From Bacillota bacterium (lineage in GTDB: Bacteria; Bacillota; Bacilli; Alicyclobacillales; Alicyclobacillaceae): a stretch of DNA of 21,257 bases. Below the pieces are notes generated by a model. That model worked only from the letters and a program-made list of their open reading frames with translations, was not told the origin of the DNA and searched no databases. Every line of letters starts with the position of its first letter. Within the stretch, counting starts at the first letter, position 1. Below, piece by piece: positions 2,146-21,257 of the stretch. The position numbers were made by a program, and so were the translations under genes. The DNA lies in assembly GCA_021816665.1 (NCBI GenBank), contig JAKAXI010000001.1, forward strand, positions 1-21,257, read 5' to 3'.

Positions 2146-3281
2146 GTGAAGGGTGCAAGTCGACTTCATTGCTGTGGTCGCTGTCGATTGGTCTAACCGG
2201 CCTCGCGGTCGGCTTTGCCATGATTTACTTCATGCGCATCATTCTGGGTGTAGCGGAGGGACCGAACTTTCCAGCTATCAACCGTGCAGTCGGTGACTGG
2301 CTGTCAAAGGACGAGCGCGCAACTGCACTCTCAAACTCGCTGGTCGCAGTGCCCCTTGCGCTCGCAATCGGTGCTCCCATCGTAACTCAACTCATCATCC
2401 ACACTTCTTGGCGCGGCATGTTTATTATTCTTGGTATCCTCGGGTTTATTTGGGTGCCAACCTGGTTCTTCCTCTTCCGCGACTTTCCCGAGCACAGCAA
2501 ACACGTCAACGACGCTGAGCTGTTGCACATTCGCGACGGAGCACCACGGTCTTCAAACGTGGACGCGAAGACCATGCGCACGGAACAGTCGAGGAGTGTG
2601 CGAGGACTTTGGAAATTTCTATTCTCGAACCCCACACTGCTCGCCAACGATTGGTCATTTTTTGTGTTTGGTTACTACCTGTTCTTTTTCATGACCTGGT
2701 TGCCGTCCTACCTCAGCGACCAATACCACTTGAATCTCTCCACTGTCGGCATGTTCAGCATCCTGCCGTGGCTGTTGGCTGCGATTCTGCTCTGGCTGGT
2801 CGGATATTTGTCTGACGCAATTCTGAAGCGCACTGGTAGCCTGCGGAAAGCTCGTTCTCACCCAATCTGGATCTCGCAACTGCTCGCAGCCATCTGCGTC
2901 ATTCCTGTCATCTACACACATAACCTTGCGGTAACTCTGGTCTTCATCTCCTTGGCAGTAGGGTTTGGCATGAGTTCGAACTCGACCTTCTACGCGATCA
3001 ACGTTGACGTGGCTCGCGAACGGACAGGTACGGCTCTTGGCGTGATGGATACATTCTTCGCCATCGCAGGCTTCGTCTCTCCGACAATTACTGGCTGGGT
3101 AGTGAAGTCCACAGGCAGCTTTACCGGTGCCTTCTGGCTGTTAGCGATCCTGGCGCTGACATCAGTGCTCGCTGTCCTCTTGTTCCATCGACCGGACCAA
3201 GCCCGAGCCCTGGAGCGAACCAATCCACAGGTGTTCGCCCCGGGAACAACAGGCGACGACTCCGCAGGGGAACGGGTCTGA
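2146..3281 (+). pseudogene. MFS transporter with deleted N-terminal helices
   Basis: From 2169 the reading frame encodes a major facilitator protein of the anion:cation symporter type (ExuT/GudP/NarK-like organic anion carriers). It starts at LLWSLSIGLTGLAVGFAMIYFMRIILGVAEGPNFP, which in the family is helix 3 with the helix 4 motif. The expected first 70-80 residues, with helices 1-2 and the conserved DR loop, are absent. A strong RBS (AGGAGGAGG, 2131-2139) is followed at 2146 by GTG AAG GGT GCA AGT CGA, a plausible family N-terminus, but that frame stops after 16 codons and is +1 relative to the body. The simplest reading is a deletion not divisible by three, making a pseudogene. A TTG at 2169 with no RBS is the only in-frame alternative. 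The remaining ten or so helices to 3281 show no further damage. Confidence 0.7.
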
Positions 3282-4200: not shown

Positions 4201-5940
4201 TCAAAGGCTCACAGATGTAACGGGCGCTGTACGAAACAAGGCTTCAATTTGGGCCACCGGGAGAGGTTTTGCAAGAAGGAAACCTTGCACCATGTCACAT
4301 CCTCGTGCCTGCAGAAGTTCCAACTGTTTCTGTTCCTCAACCCCTTCGGCCACCACTTTCATGCCGAGACTATGCGCAAGTTGGATCGTTCCTGTAACAA
4401 TCGACAGGGAACTAAAGTCCTCCAACATAGTCCGGACAAACACTTGGTCAATCTTCAAATGCGTTGGCTGGAACCGACGCAGGTATGCCAGCGACGAGTA
4501 CCCTGTGCCAAAGTCGTCAATTGCGATTTTCACGCCAAGTTCGCGAATGTTCTGTAATTCCTGTACGATCGCGAGAGAGTTCTCCATCAGGCATCCTTCG
4601 GTAATTTCAATAGCCAACCACTCAGGTTCCAGTCCTGTTTGGAGAAGCGCCTGCTGAACTTCCTGAAATACATTTCCGGCTTGAAACTGTTTGGGCGAAA
4701 TGTTCACAGATACGACCATCGGCGGATACCCAGAATCCTGCCAGACGCGGCTTTGCGCACAGGCCGTCCGCAAGACGAATCGGCCTAATGGCTCAATCAA
4801 TCCTGTTGTCTCGGCGACGGGGATAAACTCCGTAGGCGAAATCCACTCTCCATTAGAACGTTTCCACCGCAGTAAGGCCTCCACCGAACCAATGCGATTC
4901 CCTTGTTGAACCAGGAACTTCGGCTGGTAGTGCACTTCAAACTCTTGGTTGTCGAGTGCAGTCGGCAAAAGGTCTTCGATGTCCAAGCGCCGCTTGACAT
5001 ACGACGCGTCTGTCGGATGATAAAAATTAATGCGGGTGCCAGGATGAGCAACTGAGTACATCGCCACCGCGGCGTGATTGATCAGTTGCTGAACGTCGGT
5101 AGCGGAATCTGGATACGCAGCCGCCCCCATTCGCGGTGAGACCAGCAACCTTCGTGACTGTATGGTCAGCGGCATGCGAAATGCGTCGAGAAGGCGCTCT
5201 CCCATCATCCGTGCGTCTTCCACACCGTGCAGCCGATGGCTCAGGATCGCGAACTCCTCTTCACCGATCCGAGCTACCTCATCATCTGGATGGAGAACTT
5301 CTTTCAGTCGCTGTGCCACTGAAGCGACAAGTTGTTCGCCAAACGCATAGCCTTCCACATTCGCGAACAATTTTACTTTATCCAGGTGTAAAACAAATGC
5401 GTCGATACGCGGGAACTGTCTATGCCAGTTCGCGAACAACTCGTCGAGATAGCGCCTGGTGTACGTCATCGTGATGGGGTCGCGGTATATCGCTGTTTCG
5501 AGATCAATCGCGTTTGCCAAAAAGCCAGCTGCCGATCGCATCACATTGAGTTGTTCAATGCTCGGGACGGACATTCCATTGTCAATAAAACAAACGGTCC
5601 CAACACGCTGTTGAGACTTATTCTCGATGGGTATCCCCGCGAAGCTCACAGCGCCGAGGGTCTTGGTAATTCCGAGGGCAGACGTTTGCGGGTGGCGGGA
5701 AGCATCGTCGATGACAAGGATGTCATCGGCGGCGCAGACTAATGAACAGTACGTACTAGAGAGAGGCCAAAAACCTTCCGAAATCAGGGACTCTCCTCGG
5801 TTGCGAACTGCTACAACCGCGTTTGTTCCACCGTCGTTGACTGCGACAAACAAAGTGCCGTTCGGAATGAACGAACCAAGTATGTCCAGCATTTGATTAG
5901 CCGCTTGTCTGAAGGTGCCGTTCGCCAGTATACTAAGCAT
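4201..5940 (-). CDS. GAF / degenerate GGDEF / EAL c-di-GMP phosphodiesterase
   Basis: Cytosolic signalling protein of 579 residues. Residues 1-150 look like a GAF sensor domain. About 150-305 is a GGDEF domain whose active site is lost: the signature reads GEEEF (226-230), the metal-site LDxD is LHLD, and the FKxxND..GH..GD stretch reads VKLFANVEGYAFGE. About 325-570 is an EAL domain with its catalytic set in place: VEALLRW (353-359), NISPKQF (413-419), EITEG (445-449), DDFGTGYSSL (475-484), LKID (495-498) and VVAEGVE (529-535). The protein is therefore predicted to hydrolyse c-di-GMP, with the dead GGDEF perhaps binding GTP as an allosteric site. The start at 5940 follows AAGGGAGAAG; a frame extension to 6051 would run into the leader terminator. 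The leader carries a c-di-GMP riboswitch. Confidence 0.93.
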   Translation of the reverse strand: MLSILANGTFRQAANQMLDILGSFIPNGTLFVAVNDGGTNAVVAVRNRGESLISEGFWPLSSTYCSLVCAADDILVIDDASRHPQTSALGITKTLGAVSFAGIPIENKSQQRVGTVCFIDNGMSVPSIEQLNVMRSAAGFLANAIDLETAIYRDPITMTYTRRYLDELFANWHRQFPRIDAFVLHLDKVKLFANVEGYAFGEQLVASVAQRLKEVLHPDDEVARIGEEEFAILSHRLHGVEDARMMGERLLDAFRMPLTIQSRRLLVSPRMGAAAYPDSATDVQQLINHAAVAMYSVAHPGTRINFYHPTDASYVKRRLDIEDLLPTALDNQEFEVHYQPKFLVQQGNRIGSVEALLRWKRSNGEWISPTEFIPVAETTGLIEPLGRFVLRTACAQSRVWQDSGYPPMVVSVNISPKQFQAGNVFQEVQQALLQTGLEPEWLAIEITEGCLMENSLAIVQELQNIRELGVKIAIDDFGTGYSSLAYLRRFQPTHLKIDQVFVRTMLEDFSSLSIVTGTIQLAHSLGMKVVAEGVEEQKQLELLQARGCDMVQGFLLAKPLPVAQIEALFRTAPVTSVSL

Positions 5941-5986: not shown

Positions 5987-6024
5987 AAAAAAAACACCCA
6001 TCTCACGTTAAAATCTGATGGGCG
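5987..6024 (-). terminator. Leader terminator of the EAL gene
   Basis: On the minus strand CGCCCATC (6024-6017) pairs with GATGGGTG (6002-5995), eight pairs with one G-U, and is followed at once by eight U (5994-5987). It lies inside the 5' leader, about 47 nt before the EAL start codon, so it must be an attenuator rather than an end-of-gene terminator. The upstream GGCG (just before the 5' arm) can pair with its CGCC and would break the stem, a likely antiterminator. Confidence 0.85.
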
Positions 6025-6033
6025 TTCCGCCTT

Positions 6034-6114
6034 CTTGCAGCTGGCTGGCATGGCGTCTGAACACCGAAGCCCCTGTAGCTTTGCGCCACTGTGTTTCCAC
6101 AGCTATGCCCGATT
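6034..6114 (-). ncRNA. Cyclic-di-GMP-I (GEMM-I) riboswitch aptamer
   Basis: Read on the minus strand, the leader holds GGGCATAG, then the hairpin CTGTG-GAAA-CACAG (6102-6089) with a GNRA tetraloop. GGCGCAAAGC (6087-6078) follows, then TACAGGGGC, a variable stem, and GCCATGCCAGCCAGCTGC. This order (GGGCA.., GAAA-capped P1b, GCGCAAAGC.aC.GGG.C, then an AGCC-type 3' hairpin) is the GEMM-I c-di-GMP aptamer pattern. GGCAT (6109-6105) can close with ATGCC (6051-6047). It is preceded by a sigma-A promoter and followed by an intrinsic terminator, and it controls a predicted c-di-GMP phosphodiesterase. Assigned by eye without a covariance search. The direction of switching (on or off) is not determined. 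Confidence 0.82.
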
Positions 6115-6161
6115 ATTTTTTTGCTCAAAATTCCAAAAAAATCACCAAATCTATTGCAATA

Positions 6162-6190
6162 ATTCTACCTCCGCATGTACATTCCTGCAA
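6162..6190 (-). promoter_or_regulatory. Sigma-A promoter of the riboswitch/EAL transcript
   Basis: On the minus strand TTGCAG (6190-6185) is followed after exactly 17 nt by TAGAAT (6167-6162). Start of transcription is expected near 6155, some 40 nt before the aptamer. Both hexamers are five of six or close to consensus. Confidence 0.7.
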
Positions 6191-13862: not shown

Positions 13863-14930
13863 TTATCGATCCTGCGCCTTTGTCTTTCGGTCCAAAATCT
13901 GCGGCTGGCGCCTCAACAAGAGTGAAGCACAGTATCCCGCCGCTGCCAGTACCCAAGCGAGCACTGCGGCATCAAGACACCAGGGCACGATGGCGTGAAG
14001 AACATGCAGGCCCTTGATTTGGCTCATCGTGTCCGTCGCCGCCGTGTACATGCCGAGCGGGAAGACAATACTCCACAAAGCGGCCTCATAGCGGATGGGC
14101 TCTCGAAACACGATAAACTTCCAGACGCCGATGAGGACGAGAAGCGGGATCCACCAACTCCCCCAAACCCACAACATGAACGTAAAACCCTCGATAAACG
14201 GCTTGGTCAATAACAGAAAACTAGACCAGTGCGGGTATAAGATCAACCTGGACCCCGCGAGTGTCGTGATCGCCATGGCCCCCATGTTGATCCAATACGG
14301 CGGACTCAAGTCGACGGCCTTAATCGAGTGAAAGAAGAAGCGGTACATGATGAGGGCGATGAAGATGAGGTAGATAATGATCCCCAGCCCCCAAAAGGCT
14401 GTCGACGCCAGTAACAGCACGGCGGAATGTGTTGGAAAGGTGTCTGCCATGGCAGACCCGAGAGCCGCAAGTGACTCGACGCCGACGGTCGTCACGAGCC
14501 ATCCGCCGTTCATCGCATGCTGAATCGGTGCCGTGTTGTAAAACACAAGGAACATCAAGATGAAGTACATCAACACGCTCCAGGACGCCACACCGATAAC
14601 GCCGAGCCACAGCGGGATGACGACATGCCCACGGAGCACAAAGTCGGTGCCGAGCACGTCTGTGGCGGCGACAAACGTGAAGTAGCCGAACACCTTGGTC
14701 GCATCCGTAAGGTCACGCCAAACACGTCTCGGAAACCACAAGACACGCAGGAGATAGGCAACGACCAGCACCACATAGAGAGGTGTCGCAATGTCAAACA
14801 TCACGGTTGAAAACAGCAGGTGGCCAGTGAGCCGCAACGCGATCGACACAATTCCTGTGGCCATTACCGCTGCAAAGTAGCCGGTGTACAGTTCTTTCAC
14901 AGAGGACTTGATTTTCGCGATCACGCTCAT
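13863..14930 (-). CDS. TDT/SLAC1-TehA-type anion channel
   Basis: 355 residues, ten hydrophobic helices, TDT family (TehA/SLAC1/Mae1). Seen: YTGYFAAVMATGIVSIA at the start, GYFTFVAATDVLG, GGWLVTTVGVESLAALGS, PPYWINMGAMAITTLAG and WSIVFPLGMYTAAT, which are the family's pore-helix repeats with their Gly/Ala-rich kinks and gating aromatic positions. SLAC1/TehA members conduct chloride and nitrate, others carry C4-dicarboxylates or tellurite. Placed between narI and the MarR gene, where a NarK-type transporter is usual, it plausibly moves nitrate or nitrite across the membrane; this is inference from context. The ATG at 14930 follows AAGGGGGTGG, 34 nt after narI. Confidence 0.88.
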   Translation of the reverse strand: MSVIAKIKSSVKELYTGYFAAVMATGIVSIALRLTGHLLFSTVMFDIATPLYVVLVVAYLLRVLWFPRRVWRDLTDATKVFGYFTFVAATDVLGTDFVLRGHVVIPLWLGVIGVASWSVLMYFILMFLVFYNTAPIQHAMNGGWLVTTVGVESLAALGSAMADTFPTHSAVLLLASTAFWGLGIIIYLIFIALIMYRFFFHSIKAVDLSPPYWINMGAMAITTLAGSRLILYPHWSSFLLLTKPFIEGFTFMLWVWGSWWIPLLVLIGVWKFIVFREPIRYEAALWSIVFPLGMYTAATDTMSQIKGLHVLHAIVPWCLDAAVLAWVLAAAGYCASLLLRRQPQILDRKTKAQDR

Positions 14931-14964
14931 TGTGCCACCCCCTTGAATGAAACGCCGCGTGAGT

Positions 14965-15654
14965 CTACAGCCGCTTGTTCATCGACGCGCGCGTGCGATA
15001 CTGGATTGGCGGCCGCAGTGGGTACGTCACAGGCGCACTCCACAGATGAACCAAGCGCGTGAATGGCGACGCGGCCAGGAGTGCGAACGACGCGATGATG
15101 TGAATCTGGAGCAGTGTCGGAACCGACGTCATCAGGGCAGCTGCCGGGTGGAACGTCACAATGTCGCGGATCCACGGTCCGACTGTCGCGCGGTACTCGT
15201 ACGGTCCGTAGATGTTGTTGGCACCGATTGTGACGGCGTCACCGAGGCCAATCACGATAAACAAGAGCGCAAGCGCGACGAAGTCACCCGCTGACGAGTT
15301 GCCGCGCACCCGCGCATTCGCAATTCGGCGGATCAGGAGAATGGTAACGCCCACAAAGGCAGCAAATCCCGCCAAACCGCCGAATAGGTCAGCCACCTTA
15401 TGGTAAAGTTCGTTCGACACCCCAAGGTCGTGATAGACCGACAAGGGTACGAGAAGGCCCATGACGTGTCCGCCAATGACCAACAGAATGCCCCAATGGA
15501 ACAGCAGGCTCCCATAGCGCAACCACTTTTTCTCCAGCACTTCGCTCGACTTCGATCCCCACTTGCGTTGCCCGTAAATAAAGCGGTAGACGGTTCCGAC
15601 GATCATGAGTCCGAGCGTCAGGTACGGGTAGATGACCCACCAGAATTGTGCCAT
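14965..15654 (-). CDS. narI: Respiratory nitrate reductase gamma subunit (cytochrome b)
   Basis: 229 residues, five helices, the membrane anchor that oxidises quinol and passes electrons to NarH. The four haem-b ligands fall at His53 and His63 (FHWGILLVIGGHVMG) and His185 and His203 (LQIHIIASF...RLVHLWSAP), exactly parallel to the E. coli set 56/66/187/205. The N-terminus WVIYPYLTLGLMIVGTVYRF and the loop with RKWGSKSSEVLEKK are also typical. ATG at 15654 with GGAAGGAT upstream. It is 58 nt downstream of narJ and 34 nt before the TDT gene. No damage seen. Confidence 0.96.
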   Translation of the reverse strand: MAQFWWVIYPYLTLGLMIVGTVYRFIYGQRKWGSKSSEVLEKKWLRYGSLLFHWGILLVIGGHVMGLLVPLSVYHDLGVSNELYHKVADLFGGLAGFAAFVGVTILLIRRIANARVRGNSSAGDFVALALLFIVIGLGDAVTIGANNIYGPYEYRATVGPWIRDIVTFHPAAALMTSVPTLLQIHIIASFALLAASPFTRLVHLWSAPVTYPLRPPIQYRTRASMNKRL

Positions 15655-15712
15655 GCTGATCCATCCTTCCGATGCGTAGAGTGTTTCATCGCCTAGTCAT
15701 GCGCGGCGCTGT

Positions 15713-16360
15713 TCAGTCGTAATGAAGCGGATACGGCAACTCGGCAAGGTCTGCTTCTTCCCTAGCGCCACCACCGCTTTCGGGCGATACCTCTGGCAAC
15801 AAGTCCAGTGCCGCCCGAAGAATCACCCGGTAAAGACTCTCTTCCGCAAGCGCCGCATAGACCTGTCCACACACCCACGCAAGGCGCTGCTCGAGGGACA
15901 GTGTGTTCGAGGTTTCCGGTCTAACCGCCAGGAACTCCAGCAATAGTGGTACATAATCAGGCAACTCGCTGCCTGCCAACTCATAGCCCGCCTCTTCCAG
16001 AAGCTGTTTGCACTCGATGAGGGCAGTGCCGCGCTTGCGGCTGTCTCCAAGTTCATGCGCTGTCAAATACAAGGTTCGCTTATCGCTAAAGTCAAACGTC
16101 TCGACGTAGCGGCGCTGAAGAATAGTCACTGGGGTGCGCAGAAACTCATCCAGTACAGGCCTGAGCAGCGAAGCGACATCTGTGGGCGCCGCCGCCAGGT
16201 CATTTTGCAACTCAAAAAGCTCATCCCGCCACGTGCCCTCCTGTGGGTATGTCAACAGCCAGGACACGGCTGCAACACCTACCGAACGTGCCTCTTGTTC
16301 AGCAGGCGAGTACTCTGCTGCCGACTTCACTTCCGACATCTGCTCGGTCGCGTCTCCCAT
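15713..16360 (-). CDS. narJ: Nitrate reductase assembly chaperone
   Basis: 215 residues of the NarJ/TorD-type chaperone family, which binds the NarG signal region and assists molybdenum cofactor and Fe-S insertion. Diagnostic are YVETFDFSDKRTLYLTAHELGDSRKRGTAL and the ELPDYVPLLLEFLA block. ATG at 16360 overlaps the TGA of narH (TGATG), so translational coupling is likely; GTG at 16363 is the alternative start. Acidic C-terminus. Placed in the canonical G-H-J-I order. Confidence 0.95.
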   Translation of the reverse strand: MGDATEQMSEVKSAAEYSPAEQEARSVGVAAVSWLLTYPQEGTWRDELFELQNDLAAAPTDVASLLRPVLDEFLRTPVTILQRRYVETFDFSDKRTLYLTAHELGDSRKRGTALIECKQLLEEAGYELAGSELPDYVPLLLEFLAVRPETSNTLSLEQRLAWVCGQVYAALAEESLYRVILRAALDLLPEVSPESGGGAREEADLAELPYPLHYD

Positions 16361-17850
16361 CACACGCGCACCCCCTTGCGTGCGAGCGGTGGGATGACGC
16401 CTTCCGGGGGCGCGAGGTCTTCCAAACTGCAGGCGCCTTGCTCGTAGGCGAGGTCCGGGTCCATCTCGCGACGGCCGGTCGGAATCACGAAGCGTTCGTT
16501 GTACTTGGCGACACCGAACAGACGCGCCATCTCCTCGACCTGCTTCGCAGTGAGCCCAGCCTCTTTCAACAGTTCGGAACGCGCCAGGTCTGCCTCATTG
16601 CGTGCGCGCATGTAGGCGCGCATCGACACGAGGCGCAGCAGTGTCTTGCGGATCACGCCGACATCACCCGCGCTGAGAATCGAGGCTAAGTACTCCATCG
16701 GGATCCGCATCGAATCCACAGTCGGGATGTAGCTGTCGGCGGCAAACGTGTCCTCGTCGACGTGCGACATCATTGGGGAGAGCGGCGGCACGTACCACAC
16801 CATCGGCAATGTCCGGTACTCCGGGTGCAGCGGCAGTGCTACGCCCCACTCAATGGCCATTTTGTAGACCGGCGAGTTCTGCGCAGCTTCGATCCACGCC
16901 TCGGTGATGCCGGCCGCGCGCGCTGCGGCGATCACTTCCGGGTCGTGTGGGTTCAGAAACGTGTCCAACTGTGCAGGGTATAGGTCCTTTTCATCCTCGA
17001 CAGACGCGGCGGCCTTCACCTTGTCCGCGTCATAGAACATGACGCCGAGGTAGCGAATGCGCCCGACACAAGTCTCCGAGCAGACAGTCGGCAGCCCGGC
17101 CTCAATGCGCGGGTAGCAGAAGTGACACTTCTCCGCCTTGTGCGTGTTCCAGTTGAAGTACACCTTCTTGTACGGACAGGCGCTGACGCAAAAGCGCCAA
17201 CCGCGGCAGGCGTCCTGGTCAACCAGGACGATGCCGTCTTCGTCCCGCTTGTAGAGCGCGCCGGACGGACAAGCCGCGACACACGCCGGGTTCAGGCAGT
17301 GCTCGCAAATGCGCGGCAAGTACATCATGAAGGTCTGCTCATACGTAAACGCTACGTGCTCCTGCAGTTCTTTGAAGTTGGGGTCGCGCGGTGCGATCTC
17401 AGACCCGCCGGCCAAGTCGTCGTCCCAGTTCGGCCCCCATGTCGGCTGGTCCATCATCTTTCCTGTCAGAAGCGAGCGCGGCCGCGCCACAGGCTGGTGT
17501 TCGCGCTTCGGGCTGTCGATCAGGTTCTCGTAGTCGTACGTCCACGGCTCATAGTAGTCGTCGATCGTCGGCTGGTCCGGATTGTGAAAGATGTTTGCGA
17601 GTTTCGAGATCGCGCCGCCTGCACGCAGCTTCAGCTTGCCGTTTTGCAGGTGCCAGCCACCGCGGAAACGCTCTTGGTCCTCCCACTCGCGCGGGTAGCC
17701 AGGGCCTGGACGGGTTTCGACGTTGTTGAACCAGGCGTACTCGACGCCGGGGCGGTTGGTCCAGGTGTTCTTGCAGGTCACACTGCAGGTGTGACAGCCG
17801 ATACATTTGTCCAGGTTCATCACCATGGCGACTTGCGCTTTAATGTTCAA
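16360..17850 (-). CDS. narH: Respiratory nitrate reductase beta subunit
   Basis: 496 residues; carries three [4Fe-4S] and one [3Fe-4S] clusters and links NarI haems to NarG. Cysteine sets visible: 16/19/22/26, 182/185/190/194, 215/221/225 with Trp218 replacing a Cys (CRGWRFC, the mark of the [3Fe-4S] cluster), and 242/245/257/261. These agree with E. coli numbering minus two. It starts with TTG at 17850, overlapping the narG stop by 11 bp, with GAGGTG upstream. The family motif MVMNLDKCIGCHTCSVTCKN is intact. Cytoplasmic face of the membrane. Confidence 0.97.
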   Translation of the reverse strand: MNIKAQVAMVMNLDKCIGCHTCSVTCKNTWTNRPGVEYAWFNNVETRPGPGYPREWEDQERFRGGWHLQNGKLKLRAGGAISKLANIFHNPDQPTIDDYYEPWTYDYENLIDSPKREHQPVARPRSLLTGKMMDQPTWGPNWDDDLAGGSEIAPRDPNFKELQEHVAFTYEQTFMMYLPRICEHCLNPACVAACPSGALYKRDEDGIVLVDQDACRGWRFCVSACPYKKVYFNWNTHKAEKCHFCYPRIEAGLPTVCSETCVGRIRYLGVMFYDADKVKAAASVEDEKDLYPAQLDTFLNPHDPEVIAAARAAGITEAWIEAAQNSPVYKMAIEWGVALPLHPEYRTLPMVWYVPPLSPMMSHVDEDTFAADSYIPTVDSMRIPMEYLASILSAGDVGVIRKTLLRLVSMRAYMRARNEADLARSELLKEAGLTAKQVEEMARLFGVAKYNERFVIPTGRREMDPDLAYEQGACSLEDLAPPEGVIPPLARKGVRV

Positions 17851-20800
17851 GCCACTTCACCTCTTTGAGCGGTCGAATCAGGGTCATCACGTCACGCTGA
17901 TGGCCGGTCGGCCCGTAGTAGTTAAACCCGAAACTGAGCTGTGCGTAGCCGCCAATCATGTGCGTCGGCTTCGGAATGATGCGCGTGACGCTGTTGTGCG
18001 TACCGCCGCGGTCCTGCGTAATGGCACTGGCAGGCACCCCCACCGTCCGGTCCTGCGCGTGGTACATCATCGCGATCCCCATCGGCAACCGGTAGGTGAC
18101 GACCGCGCGACAGGCAATCGCGCCGTTGCGGTTGTAAACTTCGACCCAGTCGTTGTCCTTAATCCCGATGCGATTCGCGTCTTCTTCGCTCATCCAGATC
18201 GTCTGACCGCCGCGAAACAGCGTCAGCATCCGGTGGTTGTCGGAGTAGGTGGAGTGAATCCCCCACTTTTGGTGCGGTGTCAGATAGCGCACCATGACCG
18301 TCTGTGTATCGCCGCCGTCCACCGTCGGGTCGCCTTCACTGAACGGCGCAATTCCAAGCGGCGGCCGGTACAGCGGCAGCCCTTCTCCGAAGTCGAGCAT
18401 CATCTCGTGGTCGAGGTAGAAGTGCTGGCGGCCCGTCAGCGTGTGCCAGGGAATCAGGTACTCGACGTTCGACGTAAACGGCGAGTATCGCCGGTCCTTC
18501 CCTTCAAGTCCGCTCCACACCGGCGTCGCGAGCGACAGCCGAGGTTGCACGGTGATGTCGTCAAACGTGTAAGCTTCTTCCTTGCGCCCCACCTCGACGT
18601 TCGCGATGTCGAGGCCCGTCACCTTGGCCAAGGCCCCCCATTCCTCTTGCGCACGCTCGCCGTTCGACGCGCCTGACAGCGTGAGAATGGCTTCCACCGC
18701 GTGAATCGCCTCATCCAGCCGCGGTCGCCCGAACCCTGGGCCGTCTCGGTCCGATACGCCGTTGCGCTCGGCTAACTCGTGACTCGCTCGCTCACCTGAG
18801 ATTTGAATCCCCTTCGCGCCGTACGACTTCTCCACCAGCGGCCCAAGGGTCGTCATCTGGTTGAACAGGTTCGGGTAGTCGCGGTGCACCGTGATGAACT
18901 TCGGCATCGTCCGACCCGGGATGGCGTCCACTTCCCCCTTGCGCCAGTCCCGCACCTTACCGCGGTCCAGTGCCAGTTCGTCTGCCGAGTCGTGCGCGAG
19001 CGGTGCCATGACAACGTCGTCCTGAGCAGGTAAGTAGTCTTTGGCAAGGCGCGAGAACGTCTCGGCGATTGACCGGAACGCGTTCCAGTCCGTTCGCGTC
19101 TCCCACGGCGGTGAAATGGCCGGGTTGAACGGATGGATAAACGGGTGCATGTCGGTGGAGCTCAGGTCGTGCTTCTCGTACCACGTCGCCGCAGGCAGCA
19201 CGATGTCCGAGTAGAGCCCGGTGCCGGTCATGCGAAAGTCAATGTCAATGAGCAGGTCGAGCTTGCCGCGCGGCGCCTCGTCGCTCATCTTGATGTCGGA
19301 GGGCTGCCAGGACGCCTGTTCGTCCCCCAGCACGTGACCGCTCGTGCCAAGCAAGTGCTGCAAAAAATACTCATGTCCCTTCGAACTTGACCCGAGTAGG
19401 TTGGAACGCCAGACAAAGAACACCCTCGGGAAGTTTCTCGGGTTGTCCGGGTTTTCGATCGCGAACTGAATCTTGTCTTGTTTCAGTTGCTCTGCGACGT
19501 AACTCGCGACCTTCTCCGGTGTATCTGCGCCGGCTTGCCGCGCGTGCTGTAGAACTTCAAGTGAGTTTTGTGTCCACTGCGGGAACGACGGGAGCCAACC
19601 AAGTCGAGCCGACAGGGCGTTCACGTCTGCCGGGTGCATGTGGTGGAATCGGCCACCGGTTGGCGAGCCGAGTGTCTTTGTGTCCAACTCTTCATAGCGG
19701 TATTGATCGGTGGCAAAGTAAAAGAACGACGTCCCATTCTGCTGCCGCGCCGGACGCACCCAGTCACTCGCAAACGCCACAGTCGACCAGCCTTCGAGCG
19801 GCCGCACCTTCTCCTGGCCGACGTAGTGAGCCCAACCGCCGCCGTTCACCCCTTGGCAGCCCGTAAGTAGCACCAAGTTGATGATCGCGCGGTAGATCAT
19901 GTCGCTGTGGTACCAGTGGTTCGTCCCGGCGCCGAGCGCGATCATGCACTTGCCGTGCGTGCGCTCGGCCGTCTCAGCAAATTCGCGGGCGATGCGAATG
20001 ACATCTTCGCGCTTGACGCCCGTGATGGCTTCCTGCCAGCCTGGCGTGTAGGGAACCTCGTCGTCGTAGTCTTTTGGGTAGTCCCCCTGCAAGCCCCGGC
20101 CGACGCCCACGTGCGCGAGCATGAGGTCAAGAACGGTGGTCACGTACACCTCAGACCCATCCACCTTTTGCAGCTTGCGGACAGGGACGCCGCGCGTGAG
20201 CACGCTTGGCTCGCGCCCGCCAAAGTACGGGAACTGCACCATCACGACGTCGTCAACGCCTTCCAGGCAGCTGAGCGCCGGGACAATCGCGCTGCCGTCT
20301 TCCGTCTCAAGGCGCAGGTTCCACTGATTTGCGCCGTCGTAGCGGGATCCGATAGAGCCCCTGGGGATAGCAACTTGACCCGTGGTTTCGTCCCATACGG
20401 CAGTCTTCCAGGCACCCTTCTCGACGTCCGAGCAAATGTCGTCCGCTCTCAGGAAGGGACCGGGTGCGTACGCTTCACCGTGAGCGTCCAGCGTGACGAG
20501 GAACGGCAGGTCCGTGTACTGGCGGACATAGTCGAAGAAGTACGGCGTCCTCTGGTCGACGTAAAACTCCTTGAGGATGACGTGCGTCATCGCCATCGCG
20601 AGGGCGGCGTCCGTGCCCGCCTTCGCGGGCAACCACTGGTCCGCGAACTTGATGTACTCCGCGTAGTCCGGGCTCACGCCGACGACCTTTGTGCCCTTGT
20701 AGCGCGCCTCGACCATGAAGTGTGCGTCCGGCGTGCGCGTCATCGGGAGGTTGGTGCCCCAGATGATGAAATACTCCGAGTTGTACCAGTCGGCGCTCTC

Positions 20801-21257
20801 CGGCACGTCAGTCTGGTCGCCCCAGATCTGCGGCGATGCCGGTGGAAGGTCGGCGTACCAGTCGTAGAAGCTGAGGATGGTGCCGCCAAGCAGGGACAAA
20901 AAGCGGGATCCGGCAGCGTAACTCACCTGCGACATCGCAGGGATGGGGCTGAACCCGACAACGCGGTCCGGACCGTACTCTTTGATTGTGTAAATGGAAG
21001 CTGCCGCGATGATCTCGGTGACTTCGTCCCACGTCGCGCGCACCAGACCGCCTTTGCCGCGGGCGTTCCAGTAGCGCAGGCGCTTTTCGTCATCGGTGAC
21101 GATGTTCTTCCACGCCTCGATGGGGCCTTCGGTGCGGCTGCGCTCTGCTCGCCACAGGTCGATGAGGTCGCCGCGAACGTACGGGTACTTCACGCGCAGC
21201 GGGCTGTACTCATACCACGAAAAGCTGGCGCCGCGCGGGCAGCCGCGCGGTTCGTAC
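17840..21257 (-). CDS. narG: Respiratory nitrate reductase alpha subunit, 5' end cut by window
   Basis: Molybdenum bis-MGD catalytic subunit that reduces nitrate to nitrite in the cytoplasm. 1138 residues are in the window and the open frame runs into the right edge. In-frame codons before the GTG at 21193 (YEPRGCPRGASFSWYEY...) match the family, so that GTG is not the start. About 90 residues, including the His/Cys cluster FS0 motif, must lie outside. Visible: FYDWYADLPPASPQIWGDQT with the Mo-ligand Asp (E. coli Asp222), FIIWGTNLPMTRTPDAHF, the MIALGAGTNHWYHSD region and C-terminal YAQLSFGFNYYGPTG. The promoter is not in the window. Confidence 0.97.
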   Translation of the reverse strand, partial: YEPRGCPRGASFSWYEYSPLRVKYPYVRGDLIDLWRAERSRTEGPIEAWKNIVTDDEKRLRYWNARGKGGLVRATWDEVTEIIAAASIYTIKEYGPDRVVGFSPIPAMSQVSYAAGSRFLSLLGGTILSFYDWYADLPPASPQIWGDQTDVPESADWYNSEYFIIWGTNLPMTRTPDAHFMVEARYKGTKVVGVSPDYAEYIKFADQWLPAKAGTDAALAMAMTHVILKEFYVDQRTPYFFDYVRQYTDLPFLVTLDAHGEAYAPGPFLRADDICSDVEKGAWKTAVWDETTGQVAIPRGSIGSRYDGANQWNLRLETEDGSAIVPALSCLEGVDDVVMVQFPYFGGREPSVLTRGVPVRKLQKVDGSEVYVTTVLDLMLAHVGVGRGLQGDYPKDYDDEVPYTPGWQEAITGVKREDVIRIAREFAETAERTHGKCMIALGAGTNHWYHSDMIYRAIINLVLLTGCQGVNGGGWAHYVGQEKVRPLEGWSTVAFASDWVRPARQQNGTSFFYFATDQYRYEELDTKTLGSPTGGRFHHMHPADVNALSARLGWLPSFPQWTQNSLEVLQHARQAGADTPEKVASYVAEQLKQDKIQFAIENPDNPRNFPRVFFVWRSNLLGSSSKGHEYFLQHLLGTSGHVLGDEQASWQPSDIKMSDEAPRGKLDLLIDIDFRMTGTGLYSDIVLPAATWYEKHDLSSTDMHPFIHPFNPAISPPWETRTDWNAFRSIAETFSRLAKDYLPAQDDVVMAPLAHDSADELALDRGKVRDWRKGEVDAIPGRTMPKFITVHRDYPNLFNQMTTLGPLVEKSYGAKGIQISGERASHELAERNGVSDRDGPGFGRPRLDEAIHAVEAILTLSGASNGERAQEEWGALAKVTGLDIANVEVGRKEEAYTFDDITVQPRLSLATPVWSGLEGKDRRYSPFTSNVEYLIPWHTLTGRQHFYLDHEMMLDFGEGLPLYRPPLGIAPFSEGDPTVDGGDTQTVMVRYLTPHQKWGIHSTYSDNHRMLTLFRGGQTIWMSEEDANRIGIKDNDWVEVYNRNGAIACRAVVTYRLPMGIAMMYHAQDRTVGVPASAITQDRGGTHNSVTRIIPKPTHMIGGYAQLSFGFNYYGPTGHQRDVMTLIRPLKEVKWLEH

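Follow-up and report, generated by a model that had tools for sequence, protein, structure and literature searches.

Architecture of the locus

The window, by which we mean the whole 21,257-nucleotide stretch of DNA analysed here, carries on its minus strand a GAF-GGDEF-EAL gene (4201-5940), preceded in order by a predicted promoter (6188-6162), a c-di-GMP-I (GEMM-I) riboswitch aptamer (6119-6033), an intrinsic terminator (6027-5987) and a ribosome binding site (5956-5950). Across the window, the aptamer is the sole gathering-level Rfam match: in a covariance search, RF01051 scored 65 bits (gathering score 35; E 6.2e-11) over the full length of the model (1-87), covering both the GAAA loop and GCGCAAAGC. 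An earlier note, made from the letters of the DNA, had claimed a c-di-GMP-I aptamer at this place and had named a minus-strand search with RF01051 as its check; the match bears it out. The aptamer is located in the 5' leader of the gene and adjoins an expression platform (the terminator, followed by the ATG at 5940). On sequence grounds this is a genuine riboswitch of the known class RF01051, with c-di-GMP as its predicted ligand. The whole leader (6132-5941) is of ordinary stability (z -0.80; 37 of 200 shuffles were as good).

The terminator, listed in the earlier note as a U8 terminator, folds into a hairpin of 11 pairs (6027-5992) that contains a small inner stem and is followed by the eight U (5994-5987); the hairpin has a folding energy of -16.4 kcal/mol and a z of -4.47, and none of 200 shuffles was equally good. 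It was absent from the list of a pattern scanner for the window; the scanner's rule admits only loops of 3-8 bases. Translation likely starts at the ATG at 5940, preceded by AAGGGAG (5956-5950, read by eye); the mechanical open reading frame start at 6051 falls inside the aptamer and was rejected in favour of this ATG. The protein (P0001) contains EAL (E 7e-69), GGDEF (8e-20) and GAF (8e-5) domains that clear the Pfam cut-offs, the GAF domain barely (23.6 against 22.4 bits), in agreement with the domain composition first read from the sequence. Its best PDB relative, 5m3c (E 5e-77), was deposited as a diguanylate cyclase; further relatives are 4rnh (Motility regulator, 3e-76; presumably MorA), MucR 5m1t (3e-60) and DosP (1e-56).

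The promoter had been read as TTGCAG-17-TAGAAT. These letters are present; however, a sigma-A assignment is less well supported, as the -35 element matches TTGACA at three of six positions and the promoter was unlisted by a sigma-70 scan. A sigma-H assignment fits better, with GCAGGAATG (6188-6180) as -35 and GTAGAAT (6168-6162) as -10 element, giving AGGA-17-GAAT, the SigH pattern and spacing described in PMC12456013.

Conservation of the leader and its targets

A protein search of 59 genomes of the order yielded seven genes at E 1e-100 or better, six of them with RF01051 in the leader: the window gene, those of Alicyclobacillus sp. ALC3 (NZ_CP066784.1; L036/L065), of genomes G049 (L037) and G041 (L039), and two of genome G037 (L038; C2:112625-112713), called G037a and G037b below. 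Protein identity to the window ranges from 92-93% in ALC3, the nearest named relative (93% in the matched protein), down to 41% in G041, where the match begins at residue 80, though the N-terminus aligns. The match of the seventh gene (G013) is confined to residues 122-568, and RF01051 was not seen up to E 1 in about 2 kb upstream of it. Among 29 relatives' loci (L036-L064), which reach down to E 5e-83 to 1e-80, RF01051 is present in five, namely four of the aptamer-led orthologues and L060; no more than 1500 bases flank the matched part in these loci, and the count may therefore lack leaders that belong to long proteins. In each of the six leaders, a terminator-like hairpin with a U-tract separates the aptamer from the start (located by eye, then folded). 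The P1 strand reads UGCA instead of UGCC, the second C being absent, in the window, ALC3, G049, G037a and G041, a point against the switch proposed below. Computation establishes the presence of aptamer and terminator, the family of the gene and the conserved order of these parts.

In ALC3 the neighbouring genes are mostly kept. An MFS transporter gene of the window (2169-3281, plus strand), situated between the genes of a 224-aa protein and an aldo/keto reductase, has no counterpart among ALC3 open reading frames of at least 150 aa at the same place (L065). At the far end of the window (13863-21193, minus strand) there is a respiratory nitrate reductase cluster, narGHJI, with narG cut by the window end, and downstream of it a TDT-like transporter gene that scores below the model cut-off; no gathering-level Rfam match occurs in 13863-21193.

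The EAL motif residues are kept in all six orthologues, as are the positions that correspond in P0001 to E355, N414, E446, D476/D477, K497, E533 and Q553, the metal and substrate residues of the EAL domain. The GGDEF site is degenerate in the window and in ALC3 (GEEEF), departing from the intact GG[DE]EF of a diguanylate cyclase; it reads GGDEF in G049, G037a and G037b and NGDEF in G041. P0001 resembles the GGDEF-EAL phosphodiesterases 4rnh, MucR and DosP in the GGDEF-EAL or EAL part, but has a GAF domain in front and, like its ALC3 orthologue, the GEEEF site. With the EAL residues kept and the GGDEF site altered, P0001 is most probably a phosphodiesterase whose GGDEF domain is silent, whereas certain orthologues may be bifunctional.

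The sigma-H-like pattern recurs in the related leaders. AGGA-17/18-GAAW, a pattern chosen after looking and with GAAW widened to take in two of the leaders, is found in all six orthologous leaders, compared with two of the 48 further c-di-GMP-I leaders in these genomes (shuffles expect 0.08 of six); since the window and ALC3 are near relatives, and G049 and G037a as well, only about four of these lineages are independent. AGGA-17/18-GAAT is present in four of the six (window, ALC3, G041, G037b) and in none of the 48 (shuffles 0.07 of six). The strict sigma-H consensus, RNAGGAWWW-N11/12-RNNGAAT, is matched by G037b only (0 of 48 others), the window having G at the last W. A sigH gene above the family cut-off was detected in five of six genomes; the genome of the window, an incomplete assembly (73% complete, 319 contigs), gave a partial match of 34 residues and weaker ones. 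The element is thus a predicted promoter that fits sigma-H better than sigma-A. TGTCGAA, a Spo0A-box-like sequence, occurs near or in the promoters of four of the six leaders (L037, L038, L105, L039) and not in those of the window or ALC3; a literature search for pdeH together with Spo0A found no paper.

RF01051 is common in the clade, as at least one match was obtained in 59 of 61 genomes searched, the window's own genome, with four matches, included. Targets that make or break c-di-GMP are reportedly known for c-di-GMP riboswitches already (Weinberg 2007, Sudarsan 2008). We assembled 54 c-di-GMP-I matches from six genomes (four from the window's own and 50 from the others) and searched the 1500 bases downstream of each, except L001, for same-strand frames that match local profiles of EAL and GGDEF. 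Such a frame follows 15 of the 54 riboswitches, with EAL at 12 loci (in two frames at L085) and GGDEF only at three. Six of the 15 belong to the orthologue group of the window gene, and because five of the six genomes were picked for carrying this group, 9 of the 48 others is the fairer figure. Control of c-di-GMP metabolic genes by c-di-GMP riboswitches is described as rare (PMC6366702); the gene is an uncommon target for a known riboswitch class. Among literature titles and the starts of abstracts, which leave subscription papers mostly uncovered, we found no c-di-GMP riboswitch that turns off a phosphodiesterase. Folding of the leaders of the nine other riboswitch-led EAL or GGDEF genes gave no clear sign for their switches.

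The same survey brought up several further arrangements. In the genome of the window (L002, contig C194), a c-di-GMP-I riboswitch (311-385) precedes a gene (441-1376) with an intact GGDEF site (RFGGDEF; TIGR00254, E 3e-27), likely a diguanylate cyclase, and both the making and the breaking of c-di-GMP may therefore be riboswitch-controlled in this organism. At L128 (riboswitch 1501-1592, gene 1885-2214), and likewise at L129, the riboswitch stands before a short SinR/SlrR-like regulator (SlrR model, E 8.5e-20 at L128, well under the curated cut-off); in G049 and G037 the phosphodiesterase gene is about 7 kb away. Tandem c-di-GMP-I aptamers, 95 bases apart, lie before a small secreted-looking protein at L080/L104 (G002 C1:3796259-3796526), and c-di-GMP-I riboswitches before proteins like DegS-type sensor kinases (by eye) were noted at L100, L088, L096 and L126, in four genomes of two genera.

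Folding of the leader and the sign of the switch

We calculated terminator probabilities for the full-length leaders with an energy model, leaving the RNA free or forcing the aptamer. Forcing raised the terminator from 0.016 to 0.642 in G049, from 0.003 to 0.825 in G037a and from 0.053 to 0.713 in G041, i.e., in three of six leaders the ligand-competent fold promotes termination, as expected of an OFF switch; in the window (0.964 free, 0.981 forced), ALC3 (0.984 in both) and G037b (0.889, 0.898) it was without effect at equilibrium. In none of the six did the forced aptamer lower the terminator. When platforms were shuffled 150 times per leader with the terminator kept, the shift was matched by 10 shuffles in G049, one in G037a and four in G041, and by 24 in the window, 57 in ALC3 and 45 in G037b. 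In these models, the OFF reading is supported by three leaders and the ON reading by none, the other three being neutral.

The candidate antiterminator consists of the 5' strand of P3 (GGUGUUC, 6059-6065, minus strand) as its 5' half and GAACGCC (6021-6027, minus strand), the start of the terminator 5' arm, as its 3' half. In transcripts without the terminator 3' arm, this pairing is strong in G049, G037a and G041, and in the window, given a 20-base upstream flank, it reaches a probability of about 0.5. With a 5-base flank, however, the partner of the terminator 5' arm in the best fold of the window is not P3 but GGGC, close to the aptamer 5' end; pairing of the arm with aptamer bases then drops from 0.46 to 0.11 on forcing the aptamer, a drop matched by 12 of 150 shuffles (125 in ALC3, 89 in G037b). 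Between the window (GGUGUUC) and ALC3 (GGCGUUC) a U-G pair with GAACGCC is changed to C-G, which keeps the antiterminator; the change preserves P3 equally and therefore says little about it. A plain duplex test was weak, the pairing being equalled in 96 (window), 14 (ALC3), 336 (G049), 210 (G037a), 12 (G037b) and 172 (G041) of 1000 shuffles. A matrix of cognate against swapped antiterminators was set aside, as cognate pairs do not beat swapped ones and the aptamer strands are nearly identical.

The earlier note had instead seen the switch in the GGCG that precedes the terminator and can pair with CGCC in its 5' arm. This pairing exists, and in ALC3 it is the main partner of the arm (0.4-0.45), but its role as the switch found less support: the hairpin lies wholly outside the aptamer and was seen by eye in the window and ALC3 only, the remaining four leaders being without it (in G037b, GGCGCC occurs with no loop), and it therefore cannot by itself report the ligand. 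Better supported than GGCG/CGCC is the pairing of P3 with the terminator arm, which stands out in three orthologues but in the window is weak and varies with the construct. In G037b there is a long alternative pairing of UUCGGCAA with UUGCCGAA and neighbours, and before completion of the terminator the forced aptamer costs 10 kcal/mol; this would fit a kinetic OFF switch, yet the terminator wins in the full-length leader and the shuffles are unsupportive. For the window itself, we infer the sign from homology and from the construct-dependent fold before the terminator.

An ON switch, in which c-di-GMP would favour read-through and the phosphodiesterase would be induced by its own substrate in a homeostatic loop, appears unlikely. 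Riboswitches typically give feedback on the pathway of their own ligand (PMC6366702), and an ON platform is described for pilM, a related GEMM-I switch (PMC9262584); in the window and ALC3, competition with the terminator could come from the local GGCG/CGCC hairpin. But with four pairs this hairpin is weaker than the terminator with its 11, and it lacks a counterpart by eye in the remaining leaders, the aptamer match and the terminator of the window do not overlap, and no leader lost terminator probability on forcing the aptamer.

The aptamer might also bind its ligand with hardly any effect of c-di-GMP on expression, owing to a locked-on terminator or a leaky switch in this genome, a reading to which we give little credence. 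It would agree with the terminator probability of 0.96 in the window even without the aptamer, and with Bc1, a c-di-GMP-I switch of Bacillus thuringiensis reported as seemingly locked OFF (PMC11218506). Against it, equilibrium folding ignores the order of transcription, and before the terminator is made the antiterminator pairing of the window stands near 0.5. Finally, a ligand of another kind, as in the cGAMP-type GEMM-I variants, is very improbable, because the G of the GGGCA segment, which we take to be G20 in Vc2 numbering, is kept in the window and the regulated gene is a member of a c-di-GMP enzyme family. This is so although cGAMP-sensing switches were first annotated as c-di-GMP-sensing and the position equivalent to Vc2 G20 is described as a selectivity factor (PMC9262584).

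A proposed positive feedback loop

The leader is thus probably a c-di-GMP OFF switch that acts by transcription termination on an EAL-type phosphodiesterase gene and is started by sigma-H, forming a positive loop. RNA polymerase with sigma-H would start the leader; without ligand, the 5' strand of P3 would re-pair with the terminator 5' arm and transcription would continue, whereas with c-di-GMP bound the aptamer would hold the P3 strand, the terminator would form and the gene would be off. A c-di-GMP aptamer and a terminator in the leader of a predicted phosphodiesterase gene are the direct feedback proposed in the earlier note, and the short loop it described is supported; its sign had not been stated there. 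As the enzyme would remove the ligand that represses its own gene, the loop would be positive (double-negative) and not homeostatic: at low c-di-GMP the enzyme would be made and c-di-GMP would stay low, and high c-di-GMP would block the enzyme. With a sigma-H promoter, the loop would be primed as cells pass into stationary phase or sporulation and would there favour one of two c-di-GMP states, low or high. In C. difficile, sporulation is reduced when c-di-GMP is raised (PMC8653836).

The closest known switch is Cd1, an OFF switch of Clostridioides difficile, which has the same aptamer class and an intrinsic terminator, likewise uses an aptamer strand in its antiterminator, with ligand leading to termination, and is also without a regular P1 (PMC9262584). 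Cd1, however, controls flagellar genes, whereas the target here is a predicted c-di-GMP phosphodiesterase, and the OFF sign was measured for Cd1 and is predicted here. In its logic, though not by membership, the proposed loop works like PdeL, the trigger phosphodiesterase of Escherichia coli, where c-di-GMP also acts negatively on its own phosphodiesterase gene and the positive loop likely gives a steep switch (PMC5052742); PdeL, however, is a protein that regulates its own gene and is inhibited by high c-di-GMP, whereas here an RNA would do the sensing. We consider it conceivable, though rather doubtful, that the leader and its enzyme form a sigma-H-driven bistable RNA latch, a riboswitch counterpart of PdeL conserved in the six orthologous genes of the order, with each cell keeping the c-di-GMP state in which it entered stationary phase or sporulation. 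Two points go beyond the first reading of this locus, the sigma-H-like promoter that all six leaders share and the positive sign predicted for the loop. Should the sign be OFF, a single RNA and a single enzyme would together form a positive-feedback switch that ties c-di-GMP to the stationary-phase and sporulation programme.
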